Shown here piece after piece: positions 857-62,040 of a stretch of DNA of 64,000 nucleotides; position 1 is the first letter of the stretch, and each line of letters starts with the position of its first letter. The notes beneath the pieces are model-generated. The model was not told the origin of the DNA, did not search any database, and saw only the letters and a program-made list of their open reading frames with translations. Origin of the DNA: Motilimonas eburnea (GTDB lineage Bacteria > Pseudomonadota > Gammaproteobacteria > Enterobacterales > CBDFNC01). The position numbers and the translations under genes were made by a program. The DNA is taken from the NCBI RefSeq assembly GCF_021295345.1, contig NZ_JAIMJB010000005.1:62001-126000 (forward strand), read 5' to 3'.

Positions 857-1930
<1,074 letters not shown>

Positions 1931-1970
1931 TTATCACACTTAAGGCCAATAATCTGCACTCCCGACGGTA

Positions 1971-3224
1971 TCAGGTTTGCTCCGTCATCGCTTTGTTTTG
2001 CTTCATGCTGTCAATAGCAAAAGCGACGACAAACACCCCCACCCCGTAAAGCACATCCTCAGCCATAAACATGGCAATTAAGCTGCAAAACAGCGCCGTG
2101 AACCAAGCTAAATAACGCTGCCTGCCCGGTAATAATTTAATCGCGGATAAACCTGCTGCAAGATAAATCAACACAAACACCGCATTGGCATAAGCGAGTA
2201 AATGAGCAAATGACCAAGCAAACTGGTGCTTGAGTACCAATATCAACGCGATGGCAAGGGTAACAATCAACACCGCAAACACCGGGCTTTGATTTCGATT
2301 CTGCTTGCCTAAGCTCGTCATTACCTGCCCTTTTTCTGCCATGCTAGCCAGCATTCGCGCAAAACTTAAAACATATAAATTCACCGCGCAAAAACAAGCC
2401 ACAAAGCCGACCAGCGCAATCAGTTTGCCCCCTAACGGACCTAGTGCTGCTTGCGCAATCTGGATCACCGAAAGTAAGTTCGTGGCATCATCACCATAAG
2501 CGCCGTATTGCAACACGGCAATGCTTAATAGCACATAGATGGCCGCCGCCATGGCGACCCCCAGCACAACCGCGCGCGGAAAGTCCTGTTTAGGGCGGTT
2601 AAATTCATTGGCAACATGGCAAATCGCTTCGATGCCTACAAAGCACCAAAAAATCGCCGCCATTGACTGCCCGACATCGCTCCATTGCAATTCCCCCGAC
2701 GGCAGTGATGCCTCACTTCGACTCAATGCCACCACACACACGACAATGATGATGCTAGTGACACTGTAACTAAGCCAAGTTTGCAGCCTGACCGAGGTGG
2801 TGAGCTTGACTATATTGAGGACAAAAATAACCCCTAACATCAATAGCTCAAGCCACAATGCTAACGACATGGATAGATTAAACAATTGAGCAAAATAAGC
2901 AGCCCCCGTTATGATCACCACAGGCGGCCCAATAGGGGCAATAGAAACATACAACCAAGCAAGACTAGCCGCGGCCCGTCGACCAAAGGCTAATTGCACA
3001 AAGTGCGCTGTGCCCCCTTGATTGGCATAGGCCCGACCTAATGCAGCAAAAGTAAAGACTATCGGCAAAACCGCCAGCGCCATTAGCGACCAAGCCAGTA
3101 GCGAGTAAACACCCGCATAAGAGGCAACCAAGGCCGGCACCAACAACACCCCGGAGCCCAATAAGGTCGCCAGCAACATGCCCGCCCCTTGGTACACAGT
3201 AATGCCCTGCTGTGATCGTTTCAT
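1971..3224 (-). CDS. APC-superfamily amino-acid exporter, YjeH-like
   Basis: A 417-residue integral membrane protein of the amino acid-polyamine-organocation superfamily with about 12 hydrophobic segments. It resembles E. coli YjeH, an exporter of methionine and branched-chain amino acids: the N-terminal GAGMLLATLLGSGVLLVPAL glycine-rich first helix, the GRAYANQGGTAHFVQLAFG loop, and AIFWCFVGIEAICHVANEF in the middle all align in order. Length also matches YjeH (418). The substrate is inferred only. It is transcribed divergently from the outer-membrane barrel gene at 3421, with a ~200 bp shared control region. No convincing Shine-Dalgarno sequence precedes the ATG. Confidence 0.8.
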   Translation of the reverse strand: MKRSQQGITVYQGAGMLLATLLGSGVLLVPALVASYAGVYSLLAWSLMALAVLPIVFTFAALGRAYANQGGTAHFVQLAFGRRAAASLAWLYVSIAPIGPPVVIITGAAYFAQLFNLSMSLALWLELLMLGVIFVLNIVKLTTSVRLQTWLSYSVTSIIIVVCVVALSRSEASLPSGELQWSDVGQSMAAIFWCFVGIEAICHVANEFNRPKQDFPRAVVLGVAMAAAIYVLLSIAVLQYGAYGDDATNLLSVIQIAQAALGPLGGKLIALVGFVACFCAVNLYVLSFARMLASMAEKGQVMTSLGKQNRNQSPVFAVLIVTLAIALILVLKHQFAWSFAHLLAYANAVFVLIYLAAGLSAIKLLPGRQRYLAWFTALFCSLIAMFMAEDVLYGVGVFVVAFAIDSMKQNKAMTEQT

Positions 3225-3420
3225 AACGCAGAAATTTCATCAAATAGAAAACAATATGCAAACTTATTAGTATTAAGTCAATTTGTGCCTATTGCATTCA
3301 CTGTGTCGGTTCAATTTTCAATTGAAAACAAATACAAAGCCGCTAAGATTGAGTGGCATGACCGCAATCAAAGTCAAGGCTGCATTGCGTGCCAGTTCAA
3401 CATCATCATTAGGGAAGCCG

Positions 3421-4266
3421 ATGAAAACTAAATCACTTATTTTGGCAGGTGCGCTTTGCTTGTCCCACACCCCACAGGCCATGGCTGGCGAATGGAATAT
3501 CTCCTTAGGCGGCTTTTATACTACCTCCAACACAACGATGGACGTAACATCACCACTTGGAGACAGGGATTTTGGCTTAAACTTTGAAAAGGATCTTAAG
3601 CTGAGTGAAGACAAATGGTTACCCTATGCCAACCTCAACTACCAATTCAATAACAAGCACAGTATCTATTTTGACTGGAAGCGCCTGCACCGAAACGCAA
3701 CCCAAGAGCGTATTACCAAACCGTTTGAAACCGACTTAGGCGGCGATACCACTTACATTATTCAAGCGGGAGCGCGGATCAAAACCACATTGAATATCGA
3801 CATTGCTACCCTCGGCTATGGTTACTCGTTTTATCAAGATGAAAAATGGGACCTTGCTGCCACCTTAGGCATGCATATTATGTGGATTGAGATTGGTCTT
3901 AATGGCGAAATGGGAGCTTGCGTTAATAATACTTGCACCGGAGCAGTGCCCATTTTACCCAATACTGAAGCCTTTAAAGACACCACCGCGCCGCTCCCTG
4001 ATGTGGGGCTTAAAGGCCGTTACCTGATCACCCCCAATTGGGCCCTTACAGGCCAGGCGCAATATTTCTACCTTTCTTTAGACGACCTTGATGGAAGCTT
4101 GATAGACCTTAACGGCGGTGTTGAGTACCTGTTTAATGAAGATTTTAGCGCTAGCGCTAAATACGCCTACTATGATGTTGATGCCAAGTTCAAAGGTAAT
4201 ATCTCCGATCTTAAACTGAAATTTAACTATCACGGCCCGATGTTCCAGTTGCACTATCGCTTCTAG
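3421..4266 (+). CDS. Outer-membrane beta-barrel protein of unknown family
   Basis: A predicted outer-membrane protein of 281 residues. The ATG at 3421 is chosen over an in-frame upstream start because it has AGGGA at the right distance and opens a typical Sec signal peptide (MKTKSLILAG, cleavage after QAMA near residue 22). The mature chain is rich in alternating hydrophobic and aromatic strands and ends in LHYRF, the terminal phenylalanine expected for BAM-assembled barrels. One Cys pair lies in a loop (ACVNNTCTG). OmpW-like or similar small barrels are possible, but I do not recognise the family. It is divergent from the exporter gene. Cargo unknown. Confidence 0.7.
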   Translation: MKTKSLILAGALCLSHTPQAMAGEWNISLGGFYTTSNTTMDVTSPLGDRDFGLNFEKDLKLSEDKWLPYANLNYQFNNKHSIYFDWKRLHRNATQERITKPFETDLGGDTTYIIQAGARIKTTLNIDIATLGYGYSFYQDEKWDLAATLGMHIMWIEIGLNGEMGACVNNTCTGAVPILPNTEAFKDTTAPLPDVGLKGRYLITPNWALTGQAQYFYLSLDDLDGSLIDLNGGVEYLFNEDFSASAKYAYYDVDAKFKGNISDLKLKFNYHGPMFQLHYRF

Positions 4267-30627: not shown

Positions 30628-31149
30628 ATGCAATTTTCGCTACCTAGCTGGTTTAGAAAGGCGGGGTTTTGGTTAACACTTGGCCTAGCCATGAATCTAG
30701 GGGCGGCATTAATGAGCCATGTCGTTGTTGAAAGCTACCAAGATCAGATCAACTTGCTGCAGCATAAGCAGCAACAAAACAACCGCCTTAGCCAACTACG
30801 CTGGCAACACGTATCCGACCTCGAAAGAAAACGAGAGCTGTTATTAAGCTTGTTAAATCAAGGTGATCTCGATGCCAAAATCGCCAACGCACTGAATCAG
30901 CAAATCTACTACTACCTGCGCCAACCCTTACCTGAAATATCCCTTAGTCAGTTAACTGAGATCAACGCAGCACTAGATCAACAACAGCAACAAGACAGAG
31001 ACAAGGTAAACAACTTATATCTCGCTAACCTCGAGCTCAACGAGCAAGAGCAACACTTGCGACAGCAAGCCGCCACCATGAAAAACATCGCCCTGTTGCT
31101 GCAAATGGTCGGACTTGCTTTCATCATGGTGCGAGAGCTTGGCCTTTAA
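30628..31149 (+). CDS. Membrane protein with coiled-coil stalk, unknown function
   Basis: A 173-residue protein I do not recognise. Residues ~11-33 (AGFWLTLGLAMNLGAALMSHVVV) form one membrane helix. The middle ~100 residues are helical and glutamine-rich (HKQQQNNRLSQ, LDQQQQQDRDK), giving a likely coiled coil. The last ~20 residues (NIALLLQMVGLAFIMVRELG) form a second membrane helix. It could be a periplasmic or cytoplasmic hairpin rod. GGAGG precedes the ATG. It overlaps the end of the convergent nuclease gene by 4 bp. Confidence 0.65.
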   Translation: MQFSLPSWFRKAGFWLTLGLAMNLGAALMSHVVVESYQDQINLLQHKQQQNNRLSQLRWQHVSDLERKRELLLSLLNQGDLDAKIANALNQQIYYYLRQPLPEISLSQLTEINAALDQQQQQDRDKVNNLYLANLELNEQEQHLRQQAATMKNIALLLQMVGLAFIMVRELGL

Positions 31150-33308
31150 TCTGCGCTATCAGCATGGCGTAGATTGTTAATTTCAATAAACAGCTCCGCC
31201 GTGGCAAGGGCATCATTTAAAGCACGGTGATGGCCTTGCAGATTTATGCCTCGGGCCGAGCAAATATTGGCTAACGAATAAGAGTCATAGCCGGGTAACC
31301 ATTTACGCGCTAATACCACGGTACAAAGCTTGGCGCGGCGATAATCTAGCCCGCAGCGGGCAAATTCTGACTTCACCATGCCCATATCAAAATTCACGTT
31401 GTGGGCAACAAAAATGGCGCCTTGGCTAAACTCATCGACCCCTTGCGCCAATTGAGTAAACTCGGGTGCATCGGCCACCATTTGATTGCTGATACCGGTT
31501 AGTGCGGTAATGCGCTGGGGAATATGGCGCAATGGGTTGACCAAACTGGTAAAGGTATCCACTACCTTACCGGCCACCACTTTCACCATGGCGATTTCGG
31601 TAATGCGGTCATAATCTTTATGGCCTCCCGTGGTTTCCACGTCAACAATCACATAAGGCTGCTGCGGATCCAGCTGCCACACCACCGGCTGAATGGATAT
31701 CGCAAAACCTGCTTGGCTTAATTGCTGGATCCTGATCCACTGATTGCGTCGTAAACTGTCACCGGGGGCTTTGATTTCTTGCGCAAACAGCTGACCGTCC
31801 TTCACACCGATTAAGTCGGGGTAGCCATCTTTGACACTTAAATATTGCTGACTCATTAAGCGTAAATGGTTCGTCAACGCTTGGCTTGGGGCGTGATCCA
31901 CCAGCAGCGCCAGATCTTGCAACAAATCGTCGTGCCAAAACATAAAACCATTGGGCTTGCCATAATGCTGCGCGACTTGCTGTACTAACCAAGCCTTGAA
32001 CGCCGCAGGGGTTTGCAGCTGAGCGAGCCGCGCCTCTATCTCAGCGCTAAAGGTGGCATAAAAGGTATTGTCTTTAATGGTTTTCGGCAGCAGAGAAAAC
32101 TCATTACTCAGCTGACTTTTATCATCAAGGTAAAGCTGCGGCCAAAAGGTTAAGCAAAACAGGGCTCGCCAAATTTGGTTTTCGCCGTGAATGGCGGTAA
32201 CGCCTTGGCGCTGATAATGGTCAATCACGCCTTGCTCAGGCGAACCAACAAAGGCTTCGTCCAGTGCAATGGCCGGCGCGGCGTTGCGCAGCATGTCGGT
32301 TAACATTGAGGTGCGCTGAGCCGAGAATTTCAAGCGCAAAAAGTCTTGGGCAAAAAACACCAAGTGCTCATCGCTGCCATCGTCCAATATGGCGTTTAAC
32401 AGCTGCTGACAAGTCGATAATTCGCCTTGCTGATATAACAGGCGAATGCGTTTTTCTTGCGCCGAGGCATGGCCACTTAATGCCAGCAGCGCCAAGCCTT
32501 GCGCCTGATCTTGTTCGAATAATTGCACGCCCAATTTATAGCTGAGTAAGTCAAACTTATCGCTGGCATAGCTGCCTACAGGTATGACGCTTGCCTCACT
32601 CAATAGCTCTTCAGCCGCTTGCTGTTTTGCCGCTTCACCCCATTGTTTTAAAAGCCTAAGTTGTTGGATGTAGTAGTAGCCAGATTGGGCTTCATCCAGC
32701 TGATCAAAGTGGGCATTTAAGCTGGGCGCTGACGAGCCAGCCATAGTTTTGAGCATCCCCAGATCACGCATCGCAAATTGCGCTAGGGTGCCACCTAGGT
32801 GACCAAAATAAAGAAACAAGCCGTACTCAAACAGAGCCCGAAAATCAGAGTGCAAATAAGCCTGACAGAGTTCATGTTGATCGGTATCGATAGCATCACT
32901 ATGGTCTAAAGCGCATTGATACCAAAGCTGTTTTTTGGCGGAGGCAGCAGGCATGGCTGCCACATTCGCGCTAACGCAAATGGCTTGTAGCTGCGCCTTA
33001 TTCAGCTCAGGCAATAAGTCGGTTAAGGGAGATGAAGCAGCCGATGATACTAATTGCTGCGCTTTTAACTCGGCTAGCGCGGCATCGCGGTCGGGAATTT
33101 CGTCATAATTGAGCTGCGACCACTGCACAAAGCGGCTTTTGCGATTAACAATGCGCACCAGCAAACACAAAGCAGGCTCGGTTAACCCCTGCACCTGCGC
33201 CAATTGCTGTTGCTGCGCTGGTGTGAGCAAGTGCCAGCTGGTTGTTTTAATAAAACGCAGCAGCTCAAAAAAGTGGCTCAGATAATACTTTTCGGGCAGG
33301 GTTTTCAT
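31146..33308 (-). CDS. FAN1-like VRR-NUC nuclease fused to a DnaQ-type exonuclease
   Basis: A 720-residue protein. The first ~490 residues align in style with bacterial FAN1: YYLSHFFELLRFI, LCLLVRIVNRKSRFVQWSQLNYDEI, then a TPR-like helical body. A VRR-NUC domain follows with the PD-(D/E)XK core DGYPDLIGV and AQEIKAPGDSLRRNQ (Asp498, Glu511, Lys513). From ~552 a second nuclease begins, a DEDDh exonuclease with ExoI VDVETTG, ExoII VAHNVNFDMGM and ExoIII HHRALNDALAT. FAN1 trims branched or cross-linked DNA; the fused proofreading-type exonuclease would digest 3' ends. Both active sites look intact. Probably DNA repair, though no repair partner is adjacent. Confidence 0.85.
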   Translation of the reverse strand: MKTLPEKYYLSHFFELLRFIKTTSWHLLTPAQQQQLAQVQGLTEPALCLLVRIVNRKSRFVQWSQLNYDEIPDRDAALAELKAQQLVSSAASSPLTDLLPELNKAQLQAICVSANVAAMPAASAKKQLWYQCALDHSDAIDTDQHELCQAYLHSDFRALFEYGLFLYFGHLGGTLAQFAMRDLGMLKTMAGSSAPSLNAHFDQLDEAQSGYYYIQQLRLLKQWGEAAKQQAAEELLSEASVIPVGSYASDKFDLLSYKLGVQLFEQDQAQGLALLALSGHASAQEKRIRLLYQQGELSTCQQLLNAILDDGSDEHLVFFAQDFLRLKFSAQRTSMLTDMLRNAAPAIALDEAFVGSPEQGVIDHYQRQGVTAIHGENQIWRALFCLTFWPQLYLDDKSQLSNEFSLLPKTIKDNTFYATFSAEIEARLAQLQTPAAFKAWLVQQVAQHYGKPNGFMFWHDDLLQDLALLVDHAPSQALTNHLRLMSQQYLSVKDGYPDLIGVKDGQLFAQEIKAPGDSLRRNQWIRIQQLSQAGFAISIQPVVWQLDPQQPYVIVDVETTGGHKDYDRITEIAMVKVVAGKVVDTFTSLVNPLRHIPQRITALTGISNQMVADAPEFTQLAQGVDEFSQGAIFVAHNVNFDMGMVKSEFARCGLDYRRAKLCTVVLARKWLPGYDSYSLANICSARGINLQGHHRALNDALATAELFIEINNLRHADSAD

Positions 33309-33599
33309 GGCTCAAATACTGTATATAAATACACAAAAGCATAACCTAGTTTATTCTTTTATACCAAAACCTTTCCGCCTTACTCATAAAATCAATTTTA
33401 ATTCATTAACTTAACTTCATCATACCGACAATAAAAAGATGATATTCATCACAATTTTAGCAACTGAAATCCTCTATTCTTGCGCCACCTTGATAACGCG
33501 CCGCGGGGATGACGGGTTCAACCAACTCTGCGGACACACCTCTCCCTGGCACGATATAACGCCATCGCGCCGCTAAACAAATTTGTTAATTGGAATAAC

Positions 33600-34454
33600 A
33601 TGATGACCAAAACACTTATCGCACTATGTACTAGCCTTGCTCTGTTACCTTTAGCTAGCCAAGCGGCCAGCGACAACAGCGTAGATGACAGCGTGATTGC
33701 ACAGCAACGCGCCGCACTTGCCGAAAACACCCAAGGAAAGGGATTCGGTCCGCAATCACCGCGCGATATTGATACCTTAGCGGGTAACAACAAACGCATT
33801 TTTTCTGCGGCCCCAGCTTACACAGCCATGAACTTGTGTAACATCCACTTTCACAAAAACGCCGAGCACAAGGGCGGTGAATTTACTAAGTACGCAGGTA
33901 ACGGCGACGGCAAAGGCTTTGACAGCGGCTACGTTTACAACGGCAAGCTGACCGAAGCCGAACTAGCTCCGTTTGCCCAAGAAGTGGGTAAAGGCGAGCA
34001 CAACAAGCTTAAATCGGGTGACACCATTGAATTGCACTATGTACATACCACGGCACAAGTTAAGCCGGGCCCAACACTAGGCTCATGTTTAAGTGAGGCT
34101 ATCGTTAACCCACAACTGCGCGTTGAAACCCAAGTGTTTGTACTAGTTAACGACAGCAAGGCGCTAGACTTTGTTAAGCTAACCGAATACGCCGAGCAAA
34201 ACGGCTTGTATCAAGCGACTAACATGCTAAACAACACAGGTACGCCAATTCAATACGCAGGTTCAACCACTGGCCCTAGCTACAATGAAAAGGGCTCACC
34301 GCTACAAGTAACGTGGAGTGTGCGTCCACAAGTAGCTAAAGTGAACATAGCTACCGTTGCTAAATGGTTAGAAAGCAACGACTTCAATGAAGATCACGCC
34401 CACGGTGTACGTAACCTAGTGATCAACCCAGATCTCCTGTCTGCTGGCCACTAA
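33600..34454 (+). CDS. Putative periplasmic delta-class carbonic anhydrase
   Basis: A 284-residue secreted protein with a signal peptide (ending QAASD near residue 23). Its core has a histidine-rich segment NLCNIHFHKNAEHKGGEF and ELHYVHTT, which are likely metal ligands, and a C-terminal EDHAHGVRNLV. I recall this pattern from bacterial proteins annotated as delta-class carbonic anhydrases (zinc enzymes hydrating CO2), but I could not check it. Two adjacent ATG codons, 33600 and 33603, both fit. The 291-bp upstream region is AT-rich. No operon partner. Only two cysteines are visible in the mature part, enough for one disulfide. Confidence 0.62.
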   Translation: MMTKTLIALCTSLALLPLASQAASDNSVDDSVIAQQRAALAENTQGKGFGPQSPRDIDTLAGNNKRIFSAAPAYTAMNLCNIHFHKNAEHKGGEFTKYAGNGDGKGFDSGYVYNGKLTEAELAPFAQEVGKGEHNKLKSGDTIELHYVHTTAQVKPGPTLGSCLSEAIVNPQLRVETQVFVLVNDSKALDFVKLTEYAEQNGLYQATNMLNNTGTPIQYAGSTTGPSYNEKGSPLQVTWSVRPQVAKVNIATVAKWLESNDFNEDHAHGVRNLVINPDLLSAGH

Positions 34455-44049: not shown

Positions 44050-45273
44050 CTAACTCAGCAAGGATTCAATGCCGTATTCTGGGCCGTATTTTTCAACCAC
44101 AAAGTCGATGTCTTTATCACCTCGACCCGAAAGGTTAACTAAGATAGTGCCCTTCTCTCCTTGTTGGGCCAGCTTAATCGCTTGAGCAATGGCATGAGAC
44201 GATTCGATAGCGGGGATAATCCCTTCCATACGAGACAGCTCAAAAAAAGCATCAATGGCTTCTTTATCACTGATATGTACGTAATTAGCACGACCAGACT
44301 CTTTTAAGAAGGCGTGTTGTGGTCCAACCGATGGATAATCTAAACCACTGGCCACGGAATAAACCTGCTGCGGCTCACCTTCACTGTCTTTGAGCATATA
44401 AGACTTAAAGCCATGCATAATACCCGGCTCACCTAAGGTTAAAGTAGCAGCATGCTCACCCGGCTCTAAGCTGCGTCCCGAAGGTTCAACGCCATATAAG
44501 GTGACGTCTTTATCGGCTAAAAACGCACTGAACAAGCCCATGGCGTTCGAGCCACCACCGACACAGGCCACTAAGTTATCAGGTAATTTACCCGTCATTT
44601 GCTGAAATTGCTCACGGGCTTCGTTGCCGATAATGGATTGAAAATCACGCACCATGGCCGGAAATGGATGTGGGCCAACCACAGAGCCAATGGCATAAAT
44701 TTGGCTGATGGGATCTGTCATATAAGCTTCAAACGCAGCATCTACCGCTTCTTTTAAGGTTTTGCGGCCATGGGTGGCAGGAATCACTCGCGCGCCAAGT
44801 ATGCGCATTCGCACTACGTTCGGGTGTTCTTTTTTGATATCCACTTCGCCCATGTAAATATCACATTCTAGGCCCACTAATGCCGCGGCGGTTGCCAATG
44901 CCACACCATGTTGGCCCGCTCCCGTTTCGGCAATCAGCTTCTTCTTGCCCATTTTTTTCGCCAGCAAGGCTTCACCTAGACAATGATTAATTTTATGAGC
45001 GCCGGTGTGGTTGAGATCTTCACGTTTTAGGTAGATATCGGCACCGTATTTTTGCGACAAATTTTGCGCGTGAAAAATCGGACTTGGTCGACCAACAAAG
45101 TGCTTGTATAAACGCGCAAGCTCGGCTCGATATTCAGGATCATTTTTACATTCATCATAAGCCGCGCTGATCTGATCCATGATTTTTTGCAACTCTTCAG
45201 GAATAAAGCTGCCACCAAATTCACCAAAATAGCCCTGTGCGTTAGGCTGCGGATGTTGAAAGGTATTTTCCAT
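44050..45273 (-). CDS. trpB: Tryptophan synthase beta subunit, stand-alone (no trpA nearby)
   Basis: A 407-residue PLP enzyme that joins indole to serine to make tryptophan. PLP lysine in [10 protein letters not shown], catalytic glutamate in AETGAGQHG, phosphate loop GGGSNAMG, and [12 protein letters not shown] are all in place. The ATG at 45273 is preferred over the one three codons upstream (45282), because AAGGA is only one base from the latter. The segment [20 protein letters not shown] replaces the usual YMGAEDxxRQxxNVxRM region near the TrpA interface, and no trpA, trpC or trpR-like operator is present. It may scavenge free indole instead of working in an alpha2beta2 complex. Confidence 0.93.
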
Positions 45274-45440
45274 TTTCGTCATGTCCTTATATTGAAAAGC
45301 GATGTCTTGTTATAACGACAAAACCACAATAAAAGTATGACTACTTTAGAGATTTGTTAGCTTGGGCATATTTTTGTGCTACCCCAAGTTAAGGAAGCCA
45401 AACAAATGGCTAAGATGCCAGACTGACTTAAGTGATTCAG

Positions 45441-61458: not shown

Positions 61459-62040
61459 TTAAGCGCAAATATCGTGATATAGCTGATCTGCCAGCGCTTG
61501 CAGCGTATCAGCACCCGGGTGGGTATGAGCAAAAGTGCGTAAACCATAAATGCCCATCGCTAAATACCGCGCTAAATGGGCACTGTCTCGGCCTGAGGTG
61601 AGATCCCCTTGTGTCGCTGCGCGCACTAGGACTTGTTCTAACGCGGCCTGCCAGCGGGCAAGGTTATCGGCAATGATTTGCTGCACTTCAGCGTCTTGTT
61701 CGGCGACTTCATTTAACGCCTTAGTGAGCAGGCACGCCTGGCTGCTATCGCAACTTAAACACTGTTGCACCAAATCATCCAGATAGCTTTTTAACTGAGA
61801 TAATACGGGTCTGCCATCCGCAAAAAACGCCTCGAACTCAACGCTGCGATCCAGACGATACTGCTCCAATGCTGCCAGCAACAAGCCGCGTTTATTGTCA
61901 AACGCACAATAGATAGAGCCAGGGTGTAATCCGGTTGCCGCTTTGAGATCCTGCATGCTGGTTTTAGCGTATCCCTTCTCCATAAAGGCAGTCATGGCGC
62001 TGCGCAGCACTTTTTCACGATCAAATTCAGCATTTCTCAT
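61459..62040 (-). CDS. TetR-family repressor, NemR-like
   Basis: A 193-residue repressor: helix-turn-helix KVLRSAMTAFMEKGYAKTSM, QDLKAATGLHPGSIYCAFDN. The C-terminal ligand domain has SCDSSQACLLTKALNEV, with cysteines in a position comparable to the redox-sensing cysteine of NemR; this is a family-level inference. The ATG at 62040 is preferred over a longer frame that would cross the operators. Divergent from nemA, with three palindromes between them. Confidence 0.88.
   Translation of the reverse strand: MRNAEFDREKVLRSAMTAFMEKGYAKTSMQDLKAATGLHPGSIYCAFDNKRGLLLAALEQYRLDRSVEFEAFFADGRPVLSQLKSYLDDLVQQCLSCDSSQACLLTKALNEVAEQDAEVQQIIADNLARWQAALEQVLVRAATQGDLTSGRDSAHLARYLAMGIYGLRTFAHTHPGADTLQALADQLYHDICA

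Follow-up and report, generated by a model that had tools for sequence, protein, structure and literature searches.

A FAN1-type nuclease joined to a DEDDh exonuclease in marine Gammaproteobacteria, a probable member of the SOS response

The locus and the domain organization of the fusion nuclease

The window considered here is a stretch of 64,000 nucleotides from a contig of the draft genome of Motilimonas eburnea (NZ_JAIMJB010000005.1, positions 62,001 to 126,000; assembly GCF_021295345.1). It carries a gene for a protein of 720 residues in which a FAN1-type nuclease is joined to a DEDDh 3'-5' exonuclease (Table 1). The protein represents a separate, fused subfamily of FAN1 that is common in marine Gammaproteobacteria. 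An earlier note, made from the DNA sequence alone, had delimited the open reading frame (ORF) exactly and left its strand unnamed. It is the minus strand, with the start codon ATG at 33306-33308 and the stop codon at 31146-31148, and plus-strand frame 1 over the same interval contains many stops.

Table 1. Features of the fusion nuclease gene and its upstream region, in window coordinates
Feature	Coordinates	Strand	Basis
FAN1-DEDDh fusion nuclease gene, 720 residues	31146..33308	minus	ORF, Pfam, AlphaFold model
FAN1_HTH domain, residues 8-87	33048..33287	minus	Pfam PF21315, E 6.7e-17, 61.6 bits, cut-off 27
VRR-NUC nuclease domain, residues 436-538 (D498, E511, K513)	31695..32003	minus	Pfam PF08774, E 2.5e-10, 40.9 bits, cut-off 23.8
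Junction, residues 539-552, short	31653..31694	minus	VRR-NUC end leading directly to the exonuclease core; from alignment
DEDDh 3'-5' exonuclease domain, residues 553-707 (D556, E558, D641, H694, D699)	31188..31652	minus	Pfam PF00929 RNase_T, E 6.6e-36, 124.8 bits, cut-off 24
LexA (SOS) box, CTGTATATAAATACAC on the plus strand	33319..33334		One mismatch to CTGTN8ACAG; 10 bases to ATG; similar boxes upstream of orthologues

The domains follow one another in the order FAN1_HTH, VRR-NUC, DEDDh exonuclease, all three above the curated Pfam cut-offs, and the VRR-NUC domain is not located at the extreme C terminus, where the exonuclease is found instead. Three features of the FAN1 family are present, namely, the FAN1_HTH domain, a VRR-NUC domain with the D/E/K set and an upstream Glu, and the overall fold. 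The FANC_SAP family (PF18081) gave no match in the fusion at E values up to 1, and the SAP region is covered by the fold match to the FAN1 of Pseudomonas aeruginosa (PaFAN1; PA1865) described below. Of two standalone gammaproteobacterial FAN1s, that of locus L166 has a FANC_SAP match and that of locus L159 gives none at E values up to 1e-5.

The earlier note had described the exonuclease as proofreading-type. The DEDDh assignment stands, but the label needs refining, since in a sequence comparison with PDB entries the E values for DinG (5e-28) and PolC (4e-24) are far below that for Pol III epsilon (1.5e-11). By sequence, the domain is closer to DinG-type and PolC-type DEDDh exonucleases than to epsilon. 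Among the NCBIfam matches listed (25 of 30), those to the fusion are restricted to residues ~537 to 715; the general dnaq domain model is the only one to pass its cut-off, and the strongest partial matches involve DEDD-exonuclease, DinG-related, and PolC families.

Active sites and predicted structure

Ten positions were checked in an alignment of 92 fused proteins, which includes some near-identical sequences. Nine of them (E376, D498, E511, K513, Q523, D556, D641, H694, and D699) are invariant in 92/92, and the tenth, E558, is present in 91/92, the sole exception being E558G in the alphaproteobacterial locus L172 (~1501-3642), whose frame is still open. All ten are thus intact in 91 of the 92 proteins. 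Both catalytic sets named in the earlier note, Asp498, Glu511, and Lys513 of VRR-NUC and the DEDDh residues, were borne out, and with them the view that two intact nuclease modules have been fused. E376, D498, E511, and K513 align with their counterparts in PaFAN1, and the upstream Glu, E376, presumably serves as a metal ligand.

Structure prediction, which the earlier note had proposed as a check, gave an AlphaFold2 model with a mean predicted local distance difference test score (pLDDT) of 91.9 and a predicted template modeling score (pTM) of 0.83; the input alignment had 84 rows, with some duplicates and one row (L052) comprising the FAN1 part only. Upon comparison with Foldseek and VIA-align, residues 3-542 of the model superpose on PaFAN1 (4r8a; Z 27.1 over 522 residues, 19% identity; Foldseek E 4.3e-24) and residues 547-717 on the exonuclease of Staphylococcus aureus DinG (Z 25.9 over 170 residues, 36% identity; Foldseek E 3.3e-13). 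PaFAN1 (PDB 4r89/4r8a and 5y7g) shares with the fusion the FAN1_HTH and VRR-NUC domains in equal order and the aligned catalytic acids and Lys, but it stops after VRR-NUC, whereas the fusion continues with ~170 residues of DEDDh exonuclease. S. aureus DinG (PDB 8zef and 9ii8) has the closest solved DEDDh domain and likewise joins an exonuclease to a repair enzyme. In contrast to the fusion, its partner is a helicase and its exonuclease is N-terminal.

LexA boxes upstream of the fused genes

The LexA box of the Escherichia coli type reads CTGTN8ACAG, and a site of this form precedes the fusion gene (Table 1). The window genome (4.59 Mb) was scanned within one mismatch of the pattern CTGTATATANATACAG. 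This pattern had been picked once the gene's own site was known, and the evidence therefore lies in the company of other SOS promoters rather than in the presence of that site. Six matches at five places were obtained, one place being matched on both strands, and the reversed control pattern gave 0 matches in the same genome. The places are located upstream of lexA (contig C3, gene 44781-45392, site 45402-45417), upstream of a umuD-like gene (assigned by eye and by a match to the lexA model that falls short of its cut-off), at the start of a presumed yebG-like gene, upstream of a gene for a 399-residue tyrosine recombinase recognized by eye (L147; C22:246242-246257), and at the fusion nuclease gene. 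Integron integrases are under SOS control.

The LexA box at fused genes is new in this analysis. For 80 fused genes, taken from the 80 top-ranking of 155 confirmed loci in genome records and chosen for their resemblance to fused proteins, the closest site in the 200 upstream nucleotides is exact in 48 and carries one, two, or three mismatches in 17, 8, and 7, respectively, which places 65/80 within one mismatch of CTGTN8ACAG. Control ORFs of the same loci have an exact box in 0/413 cases and one with a single mismatch in 28/413. These controls had at least 200 codons, excluding ORFs that overlap the target, start less than 200 nucleotides from the locus end, or lie divergently near the target; their starts are the first possible ones, and part of the control regions may fall inside genes. 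The spacing is specific in that N8 is found in 48/80 and each of N4 to N7 and N9 to N12 in 0/80, four alternative palindromes built in the same way occur in 0 or 1 of 80, and mononucleotide-shuffled upstream regions give a mean of 0.15 genes with a box. Since related loci are not independent, the proteins were also clustered: at 80% identity, 22/50 have an exact box and 37/50 one with at most one mismatch, and at 70% identity the corresponding figures are 17/42 and 30/42. Judged from these patterns, the fusion gene probably belongs to the SOS response.

An SOS box is not unique to the fusion. Of 40 standalone FAN1 genes, 37 were usable (L058 duplicates L010, and L154 and L157 are truncated at contig ends), and 6/37 have an exact box and 12/37 one that deviates at no more than one position. 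Nine of these 12 belong to families f186, f213, or f134, and none to f21; the exact boxes lie upstream of L159, L166, L184, L186, L187, and L194, which come from several gammaproteobacterial families. In P. aeruginosa, the FAN1 gene PA1865 is reported to be induced by UV-C and ciprofloxacin, yet to lie outside the regulons known there (PMC12796719). The boxes at standalone genes suggest that, in bacteria, the control of FAN1 by LexA may predate the fusion.

In Alphaproteobacteria, the LexA box has a different form, GAACN7GAAC. It occurs exactly within 300 nucleotides upstream of 5/6 alphaproteobacterial fused genes (two from one genome) and, as a positive control, at 4/4 lexA genes from four carrier genomes. 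Over 50,079 bases, comprising the loci and one Bradyrhizobium plasmid stretch, 11 exact sites were found in all on either strand, nine of which are fused-gene and lexA promoters. It would appear that LexA control was retained while the type of box switched between classes, a pattern not easily attributed to chance or merely to the common descent of the DNA. One genome (G785) has two full-length copies of the fusion (L173 and L244), each with an exact GAACN7GAAC box.

Distribution and origin of the fusion

Among 394 genomes of the order Enterobacterales, 64 gave a FAN1 match at E values up to 1e-15. The fused form is present in 22 of these 64, three from Motilimonas and 19 from family f7, and the exonuclease motif was found in all 22. 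For the other 42, the open frame does not exceed 641 residues and the scores are far weaker; these were called standalone by length and score, and the 15 that were also read lack the exonuclease motif. None of the 22 genomes with the fused form has a second FAN1 gene among up to three candidates scored per genome, and the two FAN1 matches of G089 are fragments of one gene. In a sample of the class (369 genomes), 5/19 FAN1-bearing genomes have the fusion, one of the five being interrupted, and in a sample of the phylum (398 genomes) the fraction is 11/55, as called by open-frame length with the 687-residue frame of G960 left out. Four of the 11 lie outside the class. We take these four to be alphaproteobacterial because their proteins are 71-75% identical to the Bradyrhizobium japonicum copy, versus 37-39% for three gammaproteobacterial ones, because one of them shares 84% DNA identity with a Bradyrhizobium copy, and because their lexA promoters carry the alphaproteobacterial box. 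In the family of one alphaproteobacterial carrier, 4/100 genomes have the fusion.

In the 80 loci introduced above, the exonuclease is present at one and the same junction in 80/80, its motif beginning at about equal distance, a count that describes the fused subfamily and not FAN1s at large. Pseudoalteromonas contributes 46 of the 80. The remainder come from Paraglaciecola, Glaciecola, Aliiglaciecola, Alteromonas, Aliidiomarina, Motilimonas, Aestuariibacter, Fluctibacter, Brumicola, Idiomarina, Neptunomonas, Arenicella, and unclassified bins, and the fusion is also found in Bradyrhizobium. The earlier note had considered that the fusion might prove to be widespread and already described. It is indeed common within one clade, but no description of the FAN1-DEDDh architecture was found in the literature searched (titles and abstract openings, subscription papers being mostly outside this search). 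One fused protein is annotated in its record as an 'exonuclease domain-containing protein.' At locus L005 (genome G033), the fused gene is disrupted after ~100 codons by an insertion sequence-like element in which two frames resemble transposases.

A tree computed for the FAN1 part from 35 fused and 37 standalone proteins, made by a quick method with support from the Shimodaira-Hasegawa-like approximate likelihood ratio test (SH-aLRT) only, splits both groups by one branch (SH-aLRT, 100), with the alphaproteobacterial copies on the fused side. In a tree of the DEDDh domain with 50 rows (29 fused, 4 DEDDh-GIY-YIG, and 17 others), the DEDDh-GIY-YIG proteins are nearest to the fused group. These proteins (L007, L008, L009, and L011, from the same order; Pfam checked) resemble the fusion in having an endonuclease partner and differ in that this partner is a GIY-YIG endonuclease and the domain order is reversed. 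Of their genes, 0/3 with a placeable start have an exact LexA box, and one has a one-mismatch site. The DEDDh tree requires two changes for the fused group, as might be expected if FAN1 had acquired the exonuclease more than once. However, the data do not reject a tree in which all fused proteins form one clade (approximately unbiased test, p-AU 0.50), and the FAN1 tree, within the limits of that quick method, shows a single split; we leave the question of repeated capture undecided. The simplest history would be that FAN1 and the exonuclease fused once, long ago, and have since been inherited and transferred together.

Proposed function and alternatives

The domains present, the intact catalytic residues, the predicted fold, the conserved fusion, and the LexA boxes are all consistent with a damage-induced enzyme for the repair of crosslinks or branched DNA, and we consider this a likely function. 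By analogy, the relatives of both halves point to crosslink repair. Human, mouse, and Pseudomonas FAN1 cleave 5' flaps in vitro and have some 5'-3' exonuclease activity (PMC4103454), PaFAN1 (PA1865) is said to guide the unhooking of crosslinks (PMC12796719), and resistance to mitomycin C and formaldehyde depends on the nuclease of S. aureus DinG (PMC12345164). MrfB of Bacillus subtilis is a DEDDh 3'-5' DNA exonuclease that acts in the repair of mitomycin damage; unlike the fusion, it is a separate protein paired with the helicase MrfA and lacks a FAN1 part (PMC11194089). The LexA boxes, in turn, point to induction by damage. The dedicated repair role suggested in the earlier note thus gains support from the conserved residues, the SOS boxes, and the part played by DinG in crosslink repair.

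Conceivably, DNA damage would derepress the gene, after which the FAN1 part would bind a branched intermediate where a fork has stalled or an interstrand crosslink lies, and would nick a strand close to the junction. Its 5'-3' activity might then digest from one side, with the DEDDh domain trimming the 3' end on the other side of the nick or on the unhooked remnant, so that a clean gap would be left for polymerase and ligase. That the two sites would act in sequence on one substrate, like the activities, substrate, and induction themselves, is what we infer from this combination of domains. In its boldest form, which we put forward tentatively and think somewhat less probable than its opposite, the proposal is that of an SOS-inducible, 'two-ended' crosslink eraser that incises beside the crosslink and digests the strand both ways, 5'-3' by FAN1 and 3'-5' by DEDDh. 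One protein would then do work that is elsewhere divided among several nucleases, and LexA control of it would have been kept across classes with differing box sequences.

Alternatively, the enzyme may be regulated by SOS but act mainly on branched intermediates of replication and recombination, such as stalled forks, flaps, and 3' overhangs, with the exonuclease only polishing 3' ends. The flap cleavage by FAN1 enzymes cited above would fit this, as would the fact that LexA boxes signal DNA damage generally and not crosslinks. Still, we regard it as rather unlikely in view of the reported link of PaFAN1 to crosslink unhooking (PMC12796719) and the need for the DEDDh site of S. aureus DinG in crosslink resistance (PMC12345164). 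Very improbable, in our estimate, is a DEDDh domain that is non-catalytic and serves DNA binding or stability in an otherwise ordinary FAN1; the E558G substitution in the open frame of L172 would be in line with it, but the near-complete invariance of the exonuclease residues is not.

An anti-invader nuclease that degrades incoming phage or plasmid DNA, the other role raised in the earlier note, found no support, and we give it hardly any credence. It is true that the PADLOC models PDC-S48 (a candidate defence protein) and CRISPR-associated DEDDh match the exonuclease domain and that two Bradyrhizobium copies reside on plasmids typed as conjugative. However, the PADLOC matches are limited to residues 549-712, a generic DEDDh domain, and the nine other locus proteins yielded only a weak match of a LysR regulator to this library of defence models; location in a defence island was likewise not supported. 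Moreover, neighbours are shared mainly inside Pseudoalteromonas or Alteromonadaceae, no defence gene was recognized by eye in the largest neighbour clusters, and control by a LexA box suits repair better.

Several observations weigh against a damage-induced repair enzyme as proposed here. Substrates other than crosslinks are possible, and the relative orientation of the domains is a prediction from a single AlphaFold model with the pTM given above. The window gene's own LexA box carries one mismatch, 15/80 fused genes lack a box even when one mismatch is allowed, the alphaproteobacterial gene L243 has none in the 300 nucleotides upstream, and upon clustering at 60% identity an exact box is left in only 9/32 and one with at most one mismatch in 20/32. 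One of the four Motilimonas genomes (G003) has no FAN1 match at E values up to 1e-15 but DEDDh matches only, suggesting that the gene is dispensable. Finally, carriage by conjugative-typed plasmids, as for the two Bradyrhizobium copies, is unusual for a core repair gene.

FAN1 is relevant to human kidney disease and repeat-expansion disease, while its role in bacteria has been little studied. The natural fusion reveals an activity that selection has set beside FAN1, a 3'-5' exonuclease, and the LexA boxes would assign FAN1-DEDDh fusions to the SOS response. Hence, the question of what bacterial FAN1 is for becomes testable in tractable marine bacteria.

Mobility and gene neighbourhood

Carriage of the fusion by phages was not supported: of 50,697 phage records, 203 matched and none covered 80% of the query, and among the matches listed in a viral-contig scan, 48 confirmed loci match from query residue 519 on, which is mainly exonuclease. 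Of 72,556 plasmid records, three cover at least 80% of the query, all of them Pseudoalteromonas replicons of 0.9-1.3 Mb, possibly second chromosomes. The two Bradyrhizobium plasmids (75% query coverage) are the sole matches with an alphaproteobacterial query, and transfer of the fusion by plasmids is likely in Alphaproteobacteria.

Across families, no conserved operon partner was found in the 80 loci. In Pseudoalteromonas, neighbours recur in up to 21/46 loci. A membrane-type protein of 126 residues is encoded downstream on the same strand as the nuclease gene in 21/46 of these loci (e.g., L065), and by BLAST the window's own downstream neighbour is unrelated to it. Glaciecola, Alteromonas, and their kin have two other recurring neighbours, in 12 and 11 loci. 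The largest neighbour cluster (39/80 loci) is response-regulator-like and loosely joined, with positions from -5919 to +6408; among the twelve largest clusters, only this one and another with a single outside locus bridge both groups. No neighbour in the 80 loci is related to the convergent neighbour of the window gene, a protein of 173 residues. A Pfam scan of ten neighbours in the window identified two thioredoxin-type proteins, an acetyltransferase, a VTT-domain protein, a delta carbonic anhydrase, a DUF1330 protein, and a LysR regulator, with three lacking a match. The gene for the delta-class carbonic anhydrase (33600-34454; PF10563, E 1.9e-81) is divergent from the nuclease gene.

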